Of a stretch of DNA of 43,052 nucleotides, positions 28,522 to 34,040 are shown in pieces (the stretch's first letter is position 1; the number at the start of each line of letters is the position of its first letter). The notes beneath the pieces were generated by a model that worked only from the letters and a program-made list of their open reading frames with translations, made no database searches and had not been told where the DNA came from. The stretch covers positions 1 through 43,052 of the forward strand of contig NZ_PNOS01000041.1 in assembly GCF_002869745.1 (NCBI RefSeq), in the 5' to 3' direction. This stretch comes from Oceaniglobus roseus (GTDB lineage: Bacteria > Pseudomonadota > Alphaproteobacteria > Rhodobacterales > Rhodobacteraceae). Both the position numbers and the translations under genes were made by a program.

Positions 28522-29550
28522 ATGTCGTTCAAGGCCGCCATCTTCGGCGCCTCTGGGTATACCGGGGCCGAACTCATCCGCCTGATCGCCACCCATCCGA
28601 CGCTGGAGATCGCCGCGCTGGTGGCCGAGCGGCGGGCGGGCGAGGCGCTTGGCGCCGTGTTTCCCCACCTGCGACACCTCGACATGCCGAAGCTCGTGAA
28701 GCGCGAGGAGGTGGAGTTCGGCGGCGTCGACATCGTCTTCTGCGCACTGCCCCACGGCACCTCGGCGACGGTGGTGGCGGAGTTGCCGCGGGACGTGAAG
28801 ATCGTCGATCTCTCCGCCGATTTCCGGCTGAAGGATCCCGACGCCTATCACCACTGGTACGGCAAGCCCCATCCGGCTGCCGCGCTGCTGGGCGAGGCCG
28901 TGTATGGCCTCAGCGAGTTCTACCGCGACCGGATCGAATCCGCGCGGCTGGTGGCCGGGACGGGGTGTAACGCGGCGGCGGGCCAGTTCGCGCTGCGGCC
29001 GCTGGTCTCGGCCGGGGTGATCGACCTCGACCGCATCGTGATCGACCTGAAGGCCGGAAGTTCGGGCGCGGGGCGGGCGCTGAAGGAGAACCTGCTTCAT
29101 TCCGAGCTTCAGGGCGGCGCGGCGCCCTATGCGGTCGGGGGCAGGCATCGCCATCTGGGCGAGTTCGACCAGGAGTTCAGCGCGCTGGCCGGGCGGCCCG
29201 TGGAGGTGCAGTTCACGCCACACCTGATCCCGGCCTCCCGCGGCGTGCTGGCGACCTGCCATGTCGAGGGCGACGCCGCGGCGATCCACCGCACCCTGGC
29301 CGAGGCCTATGCCGAGGAGCCCTTCGTGGTGCTGCTGCCCATGGGCGAGGTGCCGAGCAGCCAGCATGTTCTGGGCTCCAATTTCGTGCATGTCGGGGTC
29401 GCCGGGGACCGGCGGAAGGGGCGGGCCGCGGTCTTTGCCGCTCTCGACAATCTGACCAAGGGGTCATCGGGCCAAGCCTTGCAGAACGCCAACCTTATGC
29501 TAGGAGAGGAAGAGACCGCGGGGCTGATGCTGGCGCCGCTGTTTCCATGA
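28522..29550 (+). CDS. argC: N-acetyl-gamma-glutamyl-phosphate reductase
   Basis: The gene encodes 342 residues of the long ArgC type. The Rossmann motif [14 protein letters not shown] at the N-terminus binds NADP. The catalytic Cys149 lies in [12 protein letters not shown], and the conserved [20 protein letters not shown] and [12 protein letters not shown] segments follow. ArgC reduces N-acetylglutamyl phosphate to the semialdehyde in arginine synthesis. GGAGGGAGGGGA precedes the ATG. Only 13 bp separate it from ccmE, so arginine synthesis and cytochrome c maturation genes are transcriptionally linked here. I see no arginine-specific leader. Confidence 0.96.
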
Positions 29551-29563
29551 GCGGCGGAGAGCG

Positions 29564-30022
29564 ATGAAGGGTCTGAAGAAGAAGCGACGCATCCAGATCA
29601 TCGTTCTGGCCTTCGTCGCGCTTGCCGGGTCCACCGCGCTGATCGGCTATGCCATGCGCGACGGCATCAACTTCTTCCGTGCGCCCGCGCAGGTGATGGC
29701 CGATCCGCCCTCCTCGGGCGAGGTGTTCCGCATCGGCGGCCTTGTCGCCGAGGGCTCGCTGGTGCGCGGGCAGGGCGAGCAGATCACCTTCTCGGTCACC
29801 GACGGCGCCGCGACGGTGCCCGTCACCTATACCGGCGTGCTGCCCGATCTCTTCGCCGAGGGGCAGGGGATGGTGGGCACCGGGCGCTATGTGAACGGCG
29901 TCTTCGAGGCGAGCGAGATCCTCGCCAAGCACGACGAGAATTACATGCCCAAGGAAGTGATCGACGCGCTGAAGGCGCAGGGCGTCTACGAGGCGCCGAA
30001 CGCCGAGGTTCCGCCCTCTTAA
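29564..30022 (+). CDS. ccmE: cytochrome c maturation heme chaperone CcmE
   Basis: The gene encodes 152 residues. An N-terminal membrane anchor (about 11-29), preceded by the basic KKKRR stretch, is followed by a periplasmic OB-fold. The covalent heme-binding His123 is in LAKHDENYMP, with Tyr127 as the axial ligand. CcmE accepts heme from CcmABCD and hands it to the CcmF/H lyase. In this window ccmF follows only after the three lysis-type genes. Promoter and terminator are not evident on either side, so read-through into those genes is likely. GGAGAG precedes the ATG. Confidence 0.95.
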   Translation: MKGLKKKRRIQIIVLAFVALAGSTALIGYAMRDGINFFRAPAQVMADPPSSGEVFRIGGLVAEGSLVRGQGEQITFSVTDGAATVPVTYTGVLPDLFAEGQGMVGTGRYVNGVFEASEILAKHDENYMPKEVIDALKAQGVYEAPNAEVPPS

Positions 30023-30076
30023 CCGCTCGGCCCGGATCTTCCCCGCCCAGATGCAAGGGCCCGGAGGGAGTGAGGC

Positions 30077-30688
30077 ATGGCAAGCGTGGAGTCCATCGCG
30101 GAAGAGATCGTGGCGCGGGAGGGCGGGTTCGTGAGCGACCCCGACGACCCCGGTGGCGCGACGAACCATGGCGTGACCATCGGCACCCTGCGTCGGCTGG
30201 GGCTGGACCTCGACGGCGACGGCGATGTCGACGTGGCGGACCTGCGGCGGCTGACTGCAAGCCGGGCGCGCGACATCTTCATTGAGCACTACTTCCGCCG
30301 TCCGCGCATCGCCGAGCTGCCCGAGGTGCTTCAGGACAGCGTCTTCGACATGTACGTCAACGCCGGGTCGAACGCGGTGGAGATCCTCCAGCGGCTGCTC
30401 TGCGACATGGGCCAGCGGGTGGCGGTGGACGGCGTGGTCGGGCCGCAGACCCTGGCCGCCGCCGCCGTCGCCCACGCCGCGGCGCCCGCGCATCTGCGGG
30501 ACGCCTATGGGATCGCGCGGCGCAACTACTACTACGCCCTGGCCGACCGGCGCCCTGCCTCGCGCAAGTACGCGCGGCGGCTGGACGGCGGCAAGGGCGG
30601 CTGGATCCTGCGGGCCGAGAGCTTCATCTCGCCGCGCTACCGGCTGAGCGAGGACGAGCACGCGCGCCGGGTGGCGTCATGGGGCTGA
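30077..30688 (+). CDS. holin-associated N-acetylmuramidase (GH108), GTA-type endolysin
   Basis: The gene encodes 203 residues without a signal peptide, so export to the wall needs the holin encoded next. Catalytic Glu15 lies in the GH108 motif AREGGFVSDPDDPGGATN. A C-terminal peptidoglycan-binding part (PG_binding_3 type) contains VDGVVGPQTL. Residues 44-55 (DLDGDGDVDVAD) form a full EF-hand-like calcium loop. The enzyme cuts the sugar backbone of peptidoglycan. In Rhodobacter capsulatus a muramidase/holin pair located away from the capsid cluster releases gene transfer agents, and this pair has the same composition. It overlaps the holin by 10 nt and follows ccmE by 54 bp. A TTAAC sequence at the ccmE stop is only a CtrA half-site. 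Confidence 0.88.
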   Translation: MASVESIAEEIVAREGGFVSDPDDPGGATNHGVTIGTLRRLGLDLDGDGDVDVADLRRLTASRARDIFIEHYFRRPRIAELPEVLQDSVFDMYVNAGSNAVEILQRLLCDMGQRVAVDGVVGPQTLAAAAVAHAAAPAHLRDAYGIARRNYYYALADRRPASRKYARRLDGGKGGWILRAESFISPRYRLSEDEHARRVASWG

Positions 30689-31308
30689 TCGACCGGGGCA
30701 TGGGGCTGCTGTTCGGCAGCGGCAATGTCATCGCGGAGACGGCCGAGGTGTTCCGCGAGAACGCCGAGGCCTCGGCACAGCGGGCGGCGGACCTTGGCGC
30801 GGCGTCGCTGGCGCAGTTCGCGGCCGAGTTCGCGGCCCCCCGGCAGGGTGCGTTCGACCGGTTCATGGACGGCGTGAACCGGCTGCCGCGGCCGGTCTTC
30901 GCGCTTGGCACCGTCGGGCTGTTCGGGGCCGCCATGGTAGATCCGCTGTGGTTCGCCGAGCGGATGGTGGGGCTTTCGGTGGTGCCGGACCCCCTGTGGT
31001 GGCTCCTGGGCGCGGTGGTGTCGTTCTACTTCGGCGCGCGCCATCAGGCGAAAGGGCAGGCGTTCCAGCGCGACATCGCGGCGGCGCTGGCGCGCACGCC
31101 GGGGGCGGTGGACGCCATCGCGCGACTGCGCGAGGCGCGTCAGGCGCAGGCGGGACAGACCGGGGAGGATCGGACAGATGCCGCAGGACAGGACACCGCC
31201 GCGCCTTCGGGCGCCCTTGCCGGCGCGCCGCGGGGGACCACCGCTGCCGCCACGCCGCCCCCGGACGGCAACGCGGCCCTCGACGACTGGAGGGCCGGGC
31301 GTGGATGA
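30679..31308 (+). CDS. GTA-type three-TM holin family protein
   Basis: The gene encodes 209 residues. An N-terminal amphipathic, alanine-rich helix (about 1-60) precedes two strong membrane segments (about 72-88 and 103-119). The N-terminal LLFGSG region may be the third. The long cytosolic tail is low-complexity, rich in Ala, Pro, Gly and Thr. This matches the GTA_holin_3TM family, whose members permeabilise the inner membrane to let the muramidase reach the wall. It overlaps the muramidase upstream and the 68-codon gene downstream, giving a compact translationally coupled cassette. The acidic/proline-rich tail after residue 150 is probably disordered. Confidence 0.85.
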   Translation: MGLIDRGMGLLFGSGNVIAETAEVFRENAEASAQRAADLGAASLAQFAAEFAAPRQGAFDRFMDGVNRLPRPVFALGTVGLFGAAMVDPLWFAERMVGLSVVPDPLWWLLGAVVSFYFGARHQAKGQAFQRDIAAALARTPGAVDAIARLREARQAQAGQTGEDRTDAAGQDTAAPSGALAGAPRGTTAAATPPPDGNAALDDWRAGRG

Positions 31309-31507
31309 GGCGTGGCGGCAGGCGATCGAGGCGCGGCTGATCGCCGCCGAGACGCGCAACGCAGTGGACGAGGTGCACCGCGTCAACGTCGAGAAACGGC
31401 TGTCCGCCATCGAGGATACGCTGAAATGGCTGGTGCGGCTGATCGTCGGCGCGATGCTGATGGCGGCGCTGACGCTCCTGTTCCGCGAGGGGGTCATCCC
31501 CGGCTGA
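31301..31507 (+). CDS. XhlA-like small protein, third member of the lysis cassette
   Basis: The gene encodes 68 residues starting at GTG inside the last codons of the holin, with GGAGG 8 nt upstream. The first 40 residues form a charged amphipathic helix ending in EKRLSAIEDTLKWLVRL. One membrane segment follows (about 47-62), and the tail is short. The coiled-coil-then-WL-TM pattern is that of XhlA-type phage haemolysin/holin accessory proteins. Overlap with the holin and the shared membrane topology suggest a holin partner or anti-holin. Alternative longer starts upstream would run in a shadow frame of the holin. ccmF begins 86 bp downstream. Confidence 0.65.
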   Translation: MDEAWRQAIEARLIAAETRNAVDEVHRVNVEKRLSAIEDTLKWLVRLIVGAMLMAALTLLFREGVIPG

Positions 31508-31593
31508 CCCCCGGGCCGCAGGACCTGCGGCATCGACGCACTTTGACGTGCGCCCCATTGGCGAGGCCGTCGCGCCGGTCTATGCTCCGGCGC

Positions 31594-33564
31594 ATGATTA
31601 CAGAACTCGGTCACTTCGCCCTGATCCTGGCCTTCATGGTCGCCCTGGTCCAGATGGTGGTGCCGCTCGTCGGTGCGCACCGTGGCTGGTCCGGATGGAT
31701 GGCGGTGGCCGAGCCCGCGGCCAAGACCCAGGCGGTCCTGATCGCCTTCGCCTTCGGTGCGCTGATGCACGCCTTCGTCACCTCCGACTTCTCGGTCAGG
31801 CTGGTGGTGATGAACTCCCACACAGCGAAACCGATGCTCTACAAGGTCGCGGGCGTCTGGGGGAACCACGAGGGGTCGCTGCTGCTGTGGTGCCTGATCC
31901 TCGCGGTCTTCGGCGCCTGCGCGGCCTGGTTCGGCGGCAACCTTCCGGCGACGCTGCGCGCCCGGGTGCTGGGGGTGCAGGCGGCCATCGGCGTCGCCTT
32001 TTTGGCCTTCATCCTGTTCACCTCCAACCCGTTCCTGCGCCTCGAGGTGCCGCCCTTCAACGGGCAGGACCTGAACCCGCTGCTGCAGGATCCCGGCCTC
32101 GCCTTCCATCCGCCGTTCCTCTACCTCGGCTATGTCGGGCTTTCGATGACCTTCTCCTTCGCCGTCGCCGCCCTGCTGGAGGGCCGGGTCGATGCCGCCT
32201 GGGGCAGGTGGGTCCGGCCCTGGACGCTGGCCGCCTGGATCTTCCTGACCATCGGCATCGCGCTCGGCTCGTGGTGGGCCTATTACGAGCTTGGCTGGGG
32301 CGGCTTCTGGTTCTGGGATCCGGTCGAGAACGCGTCGTTCATGCCCTGGCTGATCTCGGCGGCGCTGCTGCACTCGGCCATCGTTGTCGAGAAGCGCGAG
32401 TCGCTGAAAAGCTGGACGATCCTGCTGGCGATCATCGCCTTCGGCTTCTCGCTGATCGGCACCTTCATCGTGCGTTCGGGCATCATCACCTCGGTCCATG
32501 CCTTCGCCAACGACCCCGAGCGGGGCGTGTTCATCCTGCTGATCCTCGCCGTCTTCATGGGCGGCGCGCTGACGCTCTATGCCGCGCGGGCGGGGGTGCT
32601 GGAGGCGAAGGGGGTGTTCTCCACGCTCAGCCGGGAATCGGCGCTGGTGGCGAACAACATCCTGCTGACCGTCTCGTGCTTCGTGGTCTTCGTCGGCACG
32701 CTCTGGCCGCTGATCGCCGAGCTGCTGTTCGGACGGAAGCTTTCGGTCGGCGCGCCGTTCTTCGATGCGGCCTTCACGCCCTTCATGGTCGCCATCGCGG
32801 TGCTGCTGCCCTTCGGCTCGCTCATGCCGTGGAAACGGGCGCACATGGGGCGGGTCGCACGGCCGCTCTGGGGCGCGGCGGCGCTGAGCCTCGCGCTCGG
32901 CGCGCTGGTCTGGACGATGCAGACGGGGCGCGCCTTCCTCGCGCCGGTGGGGCTGGTGCTGGCGCTCTGGGTCGCGCTTGGCGTGGTCGCGGATCTCTGG
33001 ATCCGCTCGGGACGCGGAAACCTGGCGCAGAAGGCCGGGCGGCTCTGGCGTCTGCCGCGGGCGGACTGGGGCAAGTCGGTGTCCCACGGCGGCTTCGCGG
33101 TGACGATGTTCGGCATCTGCGCCATGACCGCCTGGCAGACCGAGGACATCCGCGTGACCCGGGTCGGCGAACCCTTCGAGGTCGGTGCCTATACCGTGAC
33201 ACTGCAGGACGTGCAGGAGGTGCAGGGGCCGAACTATTTCTCGACGCTGGCCACCATCGGCATGGAGCGGGGCGGTCGGACGATCGAACTGCACCCCGAG
33301 AAGCGGATGTATCCCGTCCAGCGGATGCCGACGACCGAGGCGGCGATCCACAACGGGATCCTGCGCGACCTCTACGTCGTGATCGGCGATCCGCAGGACA
33401 ACGGCGGCTGGGCGGTGCGCACCTATATCAAGCCCTTCGCCAACTGGATCTGGGCCGGCTGCATCATCATGGCCTTCGGCGGCGTGCTGTCGCTGTCGGA
33501 CCGCCGCCACCGCGTTGCGGCCGGTGCGGCGAAGACCCGGACGGCGGCGGTGCCCGCGGAATGA
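31594..33564 (+). CDS. ccmF: heme lyase subunit CcmF
   Basis: The gene encodes 656 residues with about 15 membrane segments. The tryptophan-rich WWD signature is present (GGFWFWDPVENASFMPW, near residue 231). Candidate heme-ligand histidines occur in periplasmic loops and TMs, such as NHEGSLLLW and FHPPFLYLGY. A large periplasmic domain (about 510-620) precedes the last TM. With CcmH it ligates heme from CcmE to apocytochrome c. ATG 31594 (MITELGHFAL) agrees with the family N-terminus, although an ATG four codons earlier exists. Neither has a strong ribosome site, which may mean reduced or coupled translation. ccmH overlaps its stop. Confidence 0.95.
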   Translation: MITELGHFALILAFMVALVQMVVPLVGAHRGWSGWMAVAEPAAKTQAVLIAFAFGALMHAFVTSDFSVRLVVMNSHTAKPMLYKVAGVWGNHEGSLLLWCLILAVFGACAAWFGGNLPATLRARVLGVQAAIGVAFLAFILFTSNPFLRLEVPPFNGQDLNPLLQDPGLAFHPPFLYLGYVGLSMTFSFAVAALLEGRVDAAWGRWVRPWTLAAWIFLTIGIALGSWWAYYELGWGGFWFWDPVENASFMPWLISAALLHSAIVVEKRESLKSWTILLAIIAFGFSLIGTFIVRSGIITSVHAFANDPERGVFILLILAVFMGGALTLYAARAGVLEAKGVFSTLSRESALVANNILLTVSCFVVFVGTLWPLIAELLFGRKLSVGAPFFDAAFTPFMVAIAVLLPFGSLMPWKRAHMGRVARPLWGAAALSLALGALVWTMQTGRAFLAPVGLVLALWVALGVVADLWIRSGRGNLAQKAGRLWRLPRADWGKSVSHGGFAVTMFGICAMTAWQTEDIRVTRVGEPFEVGAYTVTLQDVQEVQGPNYFSTLATIGMERGGRTIELHPEKRMYPVQRMPTTEAAIHNGILRDLYVVIGDPQDNGGWAVRTYIKPFANWIWAGCIIMAFGGVLSLSDRRHRVAAGAAKTRTAAVPAE

Positions 33565-34040
33565 TCGTGTCGCGGAGGAGCCTGTCGCGCGTCCTCGCGC
33601 CCCTGATGGTCGCGCTTGCCGTGATCGGCCAGCCGGTGCTGGCGGTGCAGCCCGACGAGATGCTTTCCGACCCCGCGCTCGAGTCGCGGGCGCGGGACCT
33701 GTCCAAGGGCCTGCGCTGCCTCGTCTGCCGCAACGAGAACATCGACGAGAGCGACGCCGACCTCGCGAAGGATCTCCGCGTGCTGCTGCGCGAGCGGCTG
33801 GTGGCGGGCGACACGGACGAGGAGGCCATCGCCTTCATCACCGACCGCTACGGCGAATACGTTCTGCTCAATCCCCCCGCGACGGGCTCGACCCTGATCC
33901 TTTGGCTCGCGGGCCCCGCGATGCTGCTTCTGGCCGGGGGCGTGGCCGCGGTCTATCTCCGGCGGCGCCGCCCGGAACGGCAGGACGACAGCCTGAGCGC
34001 CGAGGACAAGGCGCGGCTCGACGAAATCCTGGGGCGGTGA
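33561..34040 (+). CDS. ccmH: cytochrome c maturation thiol reductase CcmH
   Basis: The gene encodes 159 residues. An N-terminal signal/anchor (10-29) and a C-terminal membrane helix (about 108-132) bracket a periplasmic domain with the redox motif LRCLVCRNENI (Cys53 and Cys56). This reduces the apocytochrome CXXCH disulfide for heme attachment. ATGA overlap with ccmF couples translation. A separate CcmI gene is not adjacent, and the next gene is an enoyl-CoA hydratase-family enzyme 69 bp on. Confidence 0.94.
   Translation: MIVSRRSLSRVLAPLMVALAVIGQPVLAVQPDEMLSDPALESRARDLSKGLRCLVCRNENIDESDADLAKDLRVLLRERLVAGDTDEEAIAFITDRYGEYVLLNPPATGSTLILWLAGPAMLLLAGGVAAVYLRRRRPERQDDSLSAEDKARLDEILGR

Follow-up and report, generated by a model that had tools for sequence, protein, structure and literature searches.

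This study provided evidence that three overlapping genes between ccmE and ccmF are probably the GTA release (lysis) cassette of Oceaniglobus roseus, and that they form a separate nested expression unit in which a CtrA/GafA promoter would be combined with a hairpin lock against read-through. We put the probability of this explanation as a whole at roughly two in three. What is new is a conserved TTAAC together with a coevolving hairpin over the muramidase Shine-Dalgarno sequence, both in the gap between ccmE and the muramidase gene. The analyzed stretch, called the window here, comprises 43,052 nucleotides of one contig, and the features concerned are as follows.

28522..29550, + strand: argC, profile match to the semialdehyde dehydrogenase family, ending 13 bases 5' of ccmE
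29564..30022, + strand: ccmE, the upstream neighbour of the cassette (PF03100, 109.6 bits)
30019..30024, + strand: TTAACC, of the CtrA half-site type with a putative CtrA role, overlapping the ccmE stop and lying 58 bases before the muramidase start
30030..30076, + strand: leader hairpin, in which 30037-30042 is predicted to pair with the Shine-Dalgarno sequence GGAGGG at 30063-30068
30077..30688, + strand: GH108 muramidase (endolysin; PF05838 84.5 bits, PF09374 79.3 bits)
30679..31308, + strand: GTA_holin_3TM holin (PF11351 94.5 bits, above the gathering cut-off of 24.8)
31301..31507, + strand: small XhlA-like protein (likeness to PF10779 and phrog_1193), with GTG 31301 as the likelier start
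31558..31586, + strand: predicted ccmF promoter TTGGCG-17-TATGCT, identified by pattern and ending 7 bases 5' of the ccmF ATG
31594..33564, + strand: ccmF (PF16327, PF01578)
33561..34040, + strand: ccmH (PF03918)

An earlier, sequence-only reading of this DNA had described a GTA-type lysis cassette lying between ccmE and ccmF, and the profile searches agree with it for the muramidase, the holin and both neighbours. The muramidase also matched NF040573, the "holin-associated N-acetylmuramidase", with 357 bits over residues 4-203, above the curated cut-off of 240, and it carries a catalytic-type Glu at residue 15. No hydrophobic N-terminus was visible when its translation was judged by eye, in keeping with the proposed absence of a signal peptide. 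The EF-hand-like loop of the muramidase (residues 44-55, 30206-30241) is kept among 109 relatives at its first (109/109), fifth (107/109) and last (109/109) positions; the idea of a second, calcium lock was dropped and the loop is not called special, because the solved GH108 protein 2nr7 carries the same loop.

The third gene is only partly as described before, since its likeness to XhlA was recovered with a score under the family cut-off. It reached 33.5 bits (E 4.6e-8) against PF10779, where the gathering cut-off is 34.7, and 43.2 bits against phrog_1193 "hemolysin"; judging from these scores, we call it XhlA-like and do not count it as a PF10779 member. A start at 31178 was considered and dropped. 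The XhlA match covers residues 51-100 of that longer ORF and residues 9-65 of the shorter one (phrog_1193) and thus falls entirely 3' of 31301, which makes GTG 31301 the likelier start. The overlap of the cassette genes noted earlier was also seen: the muramidase and holin genes share 10 bases, as they do in 89 of 106 loci, and the holin and XhlA-like genes share 8 bases, given the start at GTG 31301. As tblastn found XhlA-like relatives in few loci (8 of the best 80 among 223 confirmed loci and 3 of 26 additional ones), this gene appears to be a lineage-specific extra. A hydropathy screen for small ORFs 3' of the holin gave 16 of 106 loci, at least one of them with a non-XhlA peptide. In a group of relatives (L004, L006, L008, L009, L017, L018, L021 and others), the holin and ccmF are separated by about 800-930 bases, suggesting another gene between them.

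The O. roseus genome contains one GH108 gene. On another contig, a GTA cluster was found that comprises terminase, prohead protease, capsid and gp10, gp12, gp13 and gp15, and the genome has one DUF6456 (GafA-type) gene (C34, 171.6 bits); the DUF6456 family is gafA according to Table 1 of PMC9765227. Both the capsid cluster and a gafA-type gene, as sought in this genome search, were present. As in an RcGTA-type lysis locus, the endolysin and holin are adjacent, the GTA structural cluster is located elsewhere in the genome and a GafA-type regulator is encoded. The two outcomes that the earlier reading had named against itself, a genome lacking a GTA structural cluster and profile assignments to unrelated families, were both excluded by the profile and genome searches, and the cassette would serve to lyse the cell.

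The conservation of the locus was surveyed in 292 genomes of the order, at least 90% complete, all listed ones belonging to the window's own family. The muramidase family occurred in 283 of the 292 genomes, in 282 above the cut-off. A class-wide draw of 241 genomes yielded six above the cut-off, four from the window's family and two from another family, and in the latter two no ccm genes were present beside the cassette within 12-kb stretches. Gene order was scored in 80 named loci, which, as the best 80 among 223 confirmed, lean to close relatives (L001 is the window; L069 and L104 share one assembly and L047 and L084 another, and each distinct leader sequence was counted once). Among these best 80 of 223, ccmE was found on the same strand within 1.5 kb upstream in 74, and both ccmE and ccmF, in order, in 49; 17 had downstream room but no ccmF, and ccmF was reversed in two. 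These counts, with those of the muramidase, make the position of the cassette a family trait. In two of the nine muramidase-less genomes (G145, G149), ccmE adjoins ccmF with a short gap only. Fourteen gene families, ccmE included, show a codon adaptation that runs parallel to that of GTA genes (Table 1 of PMC9765227), and the nearness of the lysis cassette in the window's family may be related to this.

The ccmF gene carries a promoter pattern of its own. The pattern TTGnCn-(16-18)-TAWnnn, with its end 4-10 bases 5' of the start codon, was found in its strict form at ccmF in 27 of 73 loci, with shuffles averaging 0.1, and at none of the other genes compared (muramidase 0/105, ccmE 0/97, echA 0/54, argC 0/57, murI 0/67). 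Because the promoter predicted in the window ends so close to the ATG, the predicted ccmF mRNA is leaderless, and this placement (31558-31593 in the window) recurs in relatives. A sigma-70 scan of the region, run at a threshold that the predicted ccmF promoter likewise fails to reach, returned no site.

The cassette might instead be expressed within an argC-ccmE-ccmF operon, with lysis bound to the ccm transcript as had been proposed earlier. The same strand and short gap of ccmE and the muramidase, the conserved position, and the absence of any terminator-like site between the two genes in a terminator scan of the region, which agrees with the earlier reading, are all compatible with such an arrangement. 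The sole terminator-like match of the region, against 0.8 expected, was weak and inside the holin gene, and an Rfam scan of the window gave one tRNA and nothing else. However, the ccmF promoter is separate, the leader hairpin covers the muramidase Shine-Dalgarno sequence, and the R. capsulatus counterpart is, in the published work cited below, GafA/CtrA-controlled and co-expressed with the GTA module, so that we regard this explanation as very improbable. The single argC-ccmE-cassette-ccmF operon was dropped because of the separate predicted ccmF promoter. The cassette does lie inside a housekeeping region as had been stated, but to call this an operon is too strong, since ccmF seems, as far as the sequence tells, to be independent of the cassette's upstream promoter. 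The expectation that such a module implies dedicated internal promoters and post-transcriptional control fared better, as both look real in view of the TTAAC, the leader hairpin and the ccmF promoter.

TTAAC occurred within 130 nt upstream of the muramidase in 78 of 95 distinct loci, whereas mononucleotide shuffles, which keep single-base content only, gave a mean of 5.9 and a maximum of 12 over 200 runs (these and the hairpin, arm-swap and linkage statistics ignore kinship among loci). It is mostly located at -45 to -60 from the muramidase (median -50), often overlapping the ccmE stop, and the 5' arm of the hairpin has its median start at -31. A TTAAC in the -35 region would put the first transcribed base roughly 10-25 nt 5' of the ATG, beyond the 5' arm; as the sigma-70 scan revealed no recognisable -10 element for a dedicated muramidase promoter, this predicted start is derived from spacing.

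The muramidase leaders from -45 to +3 (n = 105) had a median z of -1.85 and a probability of 0.17 that the Shine-Dalgarno sequence is unpaired, as against z of -0.29 to +0.07 and probabilities of 0.37-0.53 for the control leaders of ccmE, ccmF, echA, argC and murI, and -0.21 and 0.27 for ccmH (n = 5). The Shine-Dalgarno sequence itself was the 3' arm in 95 of 95 folded leaders, and trimming the leader to 22 nt raised its probability of being unpaired from 0.17 to 0.64. When 5' and 3' halves were swapped among loci, own halves gave -16.6 kcal/mol and permuted ones -12.7 kcal/mol (z -13.5; none of 10,000 permutations was as good), and five control sets ranged from z -2.3 to +1.9. The arms of the muramidase leader hairpin coevolve. 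The antisense of the leader also showed an arm-swap signal (z -8.5), because a real palindrome must show it. When 21 leaders were aligned by sequence, RNAalifold predicted no pairs, since their arms fail to line up in such an alignment. The structure is also associated with the ccmE neighbourhood: the 93 ccmE-linked loci had a median z of -2.01 (79 below -1 and 14 above -1), and the nine loci without ccmE linkage had one of -0.51 (p 0.0014), with a single exception, L013, whose hairpin is very strong (z -4.56).

Taken singly, the window's leader could pass for a functionless consequence of high G+C content combined with a strong Shine-Dalgarno sequence, since 30030-30079 (MFE -21.1 kcal/mol, z -1.05) lies within its shuffles and its hairpin was no stabler than they were in separate runs (z +0.50, -1.05 and -0.27). 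Against such an origin stand the dinucleotide-shuffled controls, the comparison with five further genes from these genomes and the arm-swap permutations across loci, and we consider it highly unlikely. A somewhat more plausible, but still unlikely, alternative is that the inverted repeat works at another level, as a GafA/CtrA DNA operator, an attenuator overridden by GafA antitermination or an mRNA-processing site. The 5' arm often holds CAGCNT at a constant distance from TTAAC (35 of 95 loci have the strict bipartite pattern, as against 0.3 in shuffles), and GafZ antitermination has been published for Caulobacter (PMC11150451), both of which would suit such a function. Yet the arm sequences vary while their pairing is kept, no T-run follows the hairpin, and the 3' arm is always the Shine-Dalgarno sequence. 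In addition, the sense leader was stabler than its complement in 70 loci and less stable in 23, of 95 (p 4e-7), which favours a role in RNA over one in DNA.

We therefore prefer the nested unit with its own promoter and hairpin lock. Phosphorylated CtrA, together with GafA, would activate the dedicated promoter, whose mark is the TTAAC some 50 bases ahead of the muramidase start. In R. capsulatus, the promoter of the lysis cassette is bound by GafA and the endolysin depends on CtrA for its expression (PMC6363796), and putative CtrA half-sites were described in that promoter (PMC9638019). Read-through RNA from argC-ccmE would fold the leader, leaving the Shine-Dalgarno sequence paired and the muramidase and overlapping holin untranslated; the predicted structures show such pairing on the long transcript, as in a self-silencing leader of the T4 gene e type. 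Transcripts from the dedicated promoter would begin inside or past the 5' arm, where no hairpin is possible, and could be translated, and ccmF, transcribed from its own promoter, would need neither unit. Such a two-key lock, a dedicated promoter plus a hairpin formed only by read-through RNA, would let a lethal pair be long tolerated behind a housekeeping gene, and with it the timing of GTA release becomes open to experiment.

The cassette also persists where the capsid is gone. The capsid was tested in 44 of the 292 genomes and in 50 named ones, the rest being judged by GTA_TIM, which prophages can carry. An intact GTA capsid was absent in 27 of the 44, of which 11 had no GTA_TIM and 16 a weak GTA_TIM match only; a capsid fragment was seen in G250, and distant capsid relatives only in G078 and G110. 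The muramidase is kept in 25 of these 27, without internal stops in any (the G079 copy is shorter), and the DUF6456 gene in 26. The ccmE gene lies directly upstream in 24 of the 25 genomes with muramidase, TTAAC occurs in 21 of 24, and 16 of the 22 leaders measured have a z below -1. The muramidase dN/dS among capsid-less congeners is 0.04-0.11, so that constraint on this gene persists unless the capsid losses are recent; the comparison group of this dN/dS analysis includes the duplicate assemblies L069/L104 and L047/L084. In the reverse case, seven capsid-bearing genomes lack the muramidase, and there was no detectable tie between cassette presence and GTA presence (Fisher p 0.20, most GTA calls being by GTA_TIM). 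"Stops inside" Paracoccus capsids were dropped as a sign of decay, since tblastn of four Paracoccus stretches and of Fertoeibacter (L127) showed no stop in the aligned part.

In all 16 genomes with a weak GTA_TIM match (L129-L144), the terminase matches ended at about residue 199. In these genomes, the GTA cluster has collapsed in situ to a chimera, one gene in which TerL 1-198 is fused to gp15 from about residue 753 to the end; this applies to 16 of the 27 capsid-less genomes, or about 1 in 18 genomes. The junction falls at the identical codon in all but one of the 16, the exception (G102) being frameshifted there, and 13 of the 16 have an open chimeric gene of 831-893 codons. In L140 and L136, the chimera is followed by a gene resembling one 3' of gp15 in L110. 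Fused and intact rows interleave in the gp15 tree, with 11 changes, 8 of them forced by well-supported branches, and the shorter TerL tree has 10 changes, 4 of them so forced; either the identical deletion has recurred or the junction was spread by recombination. The dN/dS of six fused pairs was 0.065-0.153. The chimera is also in one frame in L003 (JAGXFH01, Brevirhabdus MAG) and L059 (JAHDGO01, Yoonia MAG), and that in L069 (CANNCO01) is apparently G151 again, not a further case. It is a tentative and rather doubtful possibility that cassette and regulator make up a GTA-independent, host-owned lysis programme, with the TerL-gp15 chimera perhaps its working partner. A cassette persisting without the capsid raises the question of the purpose of programmed lysis in these marine bacteria.

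Concerning known systems, no published account of a lysis locus at ccmE/ccmF was found in the titles and abstract starts of the open-licence literature, which is weak evidence of absence. Caulobacter CcGTA (GafY/GafZ/IHF) resembles the present case in having a DUF6456-type regulator and a GTA (PMC11150451), and differs in that NF040573 and PF05838 were unmatched in 14 control genomes including Caulobacter vibrioides. In phage T4 gene e, long transcripts sequester the Shine-Dalgarno sequence, and transcription from late promoters begins beyond the 5' strand (PMC3014915). Like the muramidase, gene e is a lysozyme-type gene whose Shine-Dalgarno sequence is hidden on a long upstream transcript, as predicted here; gene e uses early and late phage promoters, whereas the upstream transcript in the window would be a host housekeeping one, and a common origin is not claimed. 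The closest counterparts are rcc00555/rcc00556 of RcGTA in R. capsulatus and Dshi_1756/1757 of D. shibae, which by description, the basis of this comparison, likewise consist of a GH108-type endolysin and a holin apart from the capsid cluster, under GafA/CtrA control. Co-expression of rcc00555/rcc00556 with the GTA module has been reported (PMC4158056). A primer for the rcc00555 region (PMC6854486) matches the window's argC in 19 of 20 bases (29035-29054), which suggests that argC precedes the R. capsulatus locus as well. The RcGTA passages cited are silent on an XhlA-like gene, a ccmE/ccmF setting and a leader hairpin.
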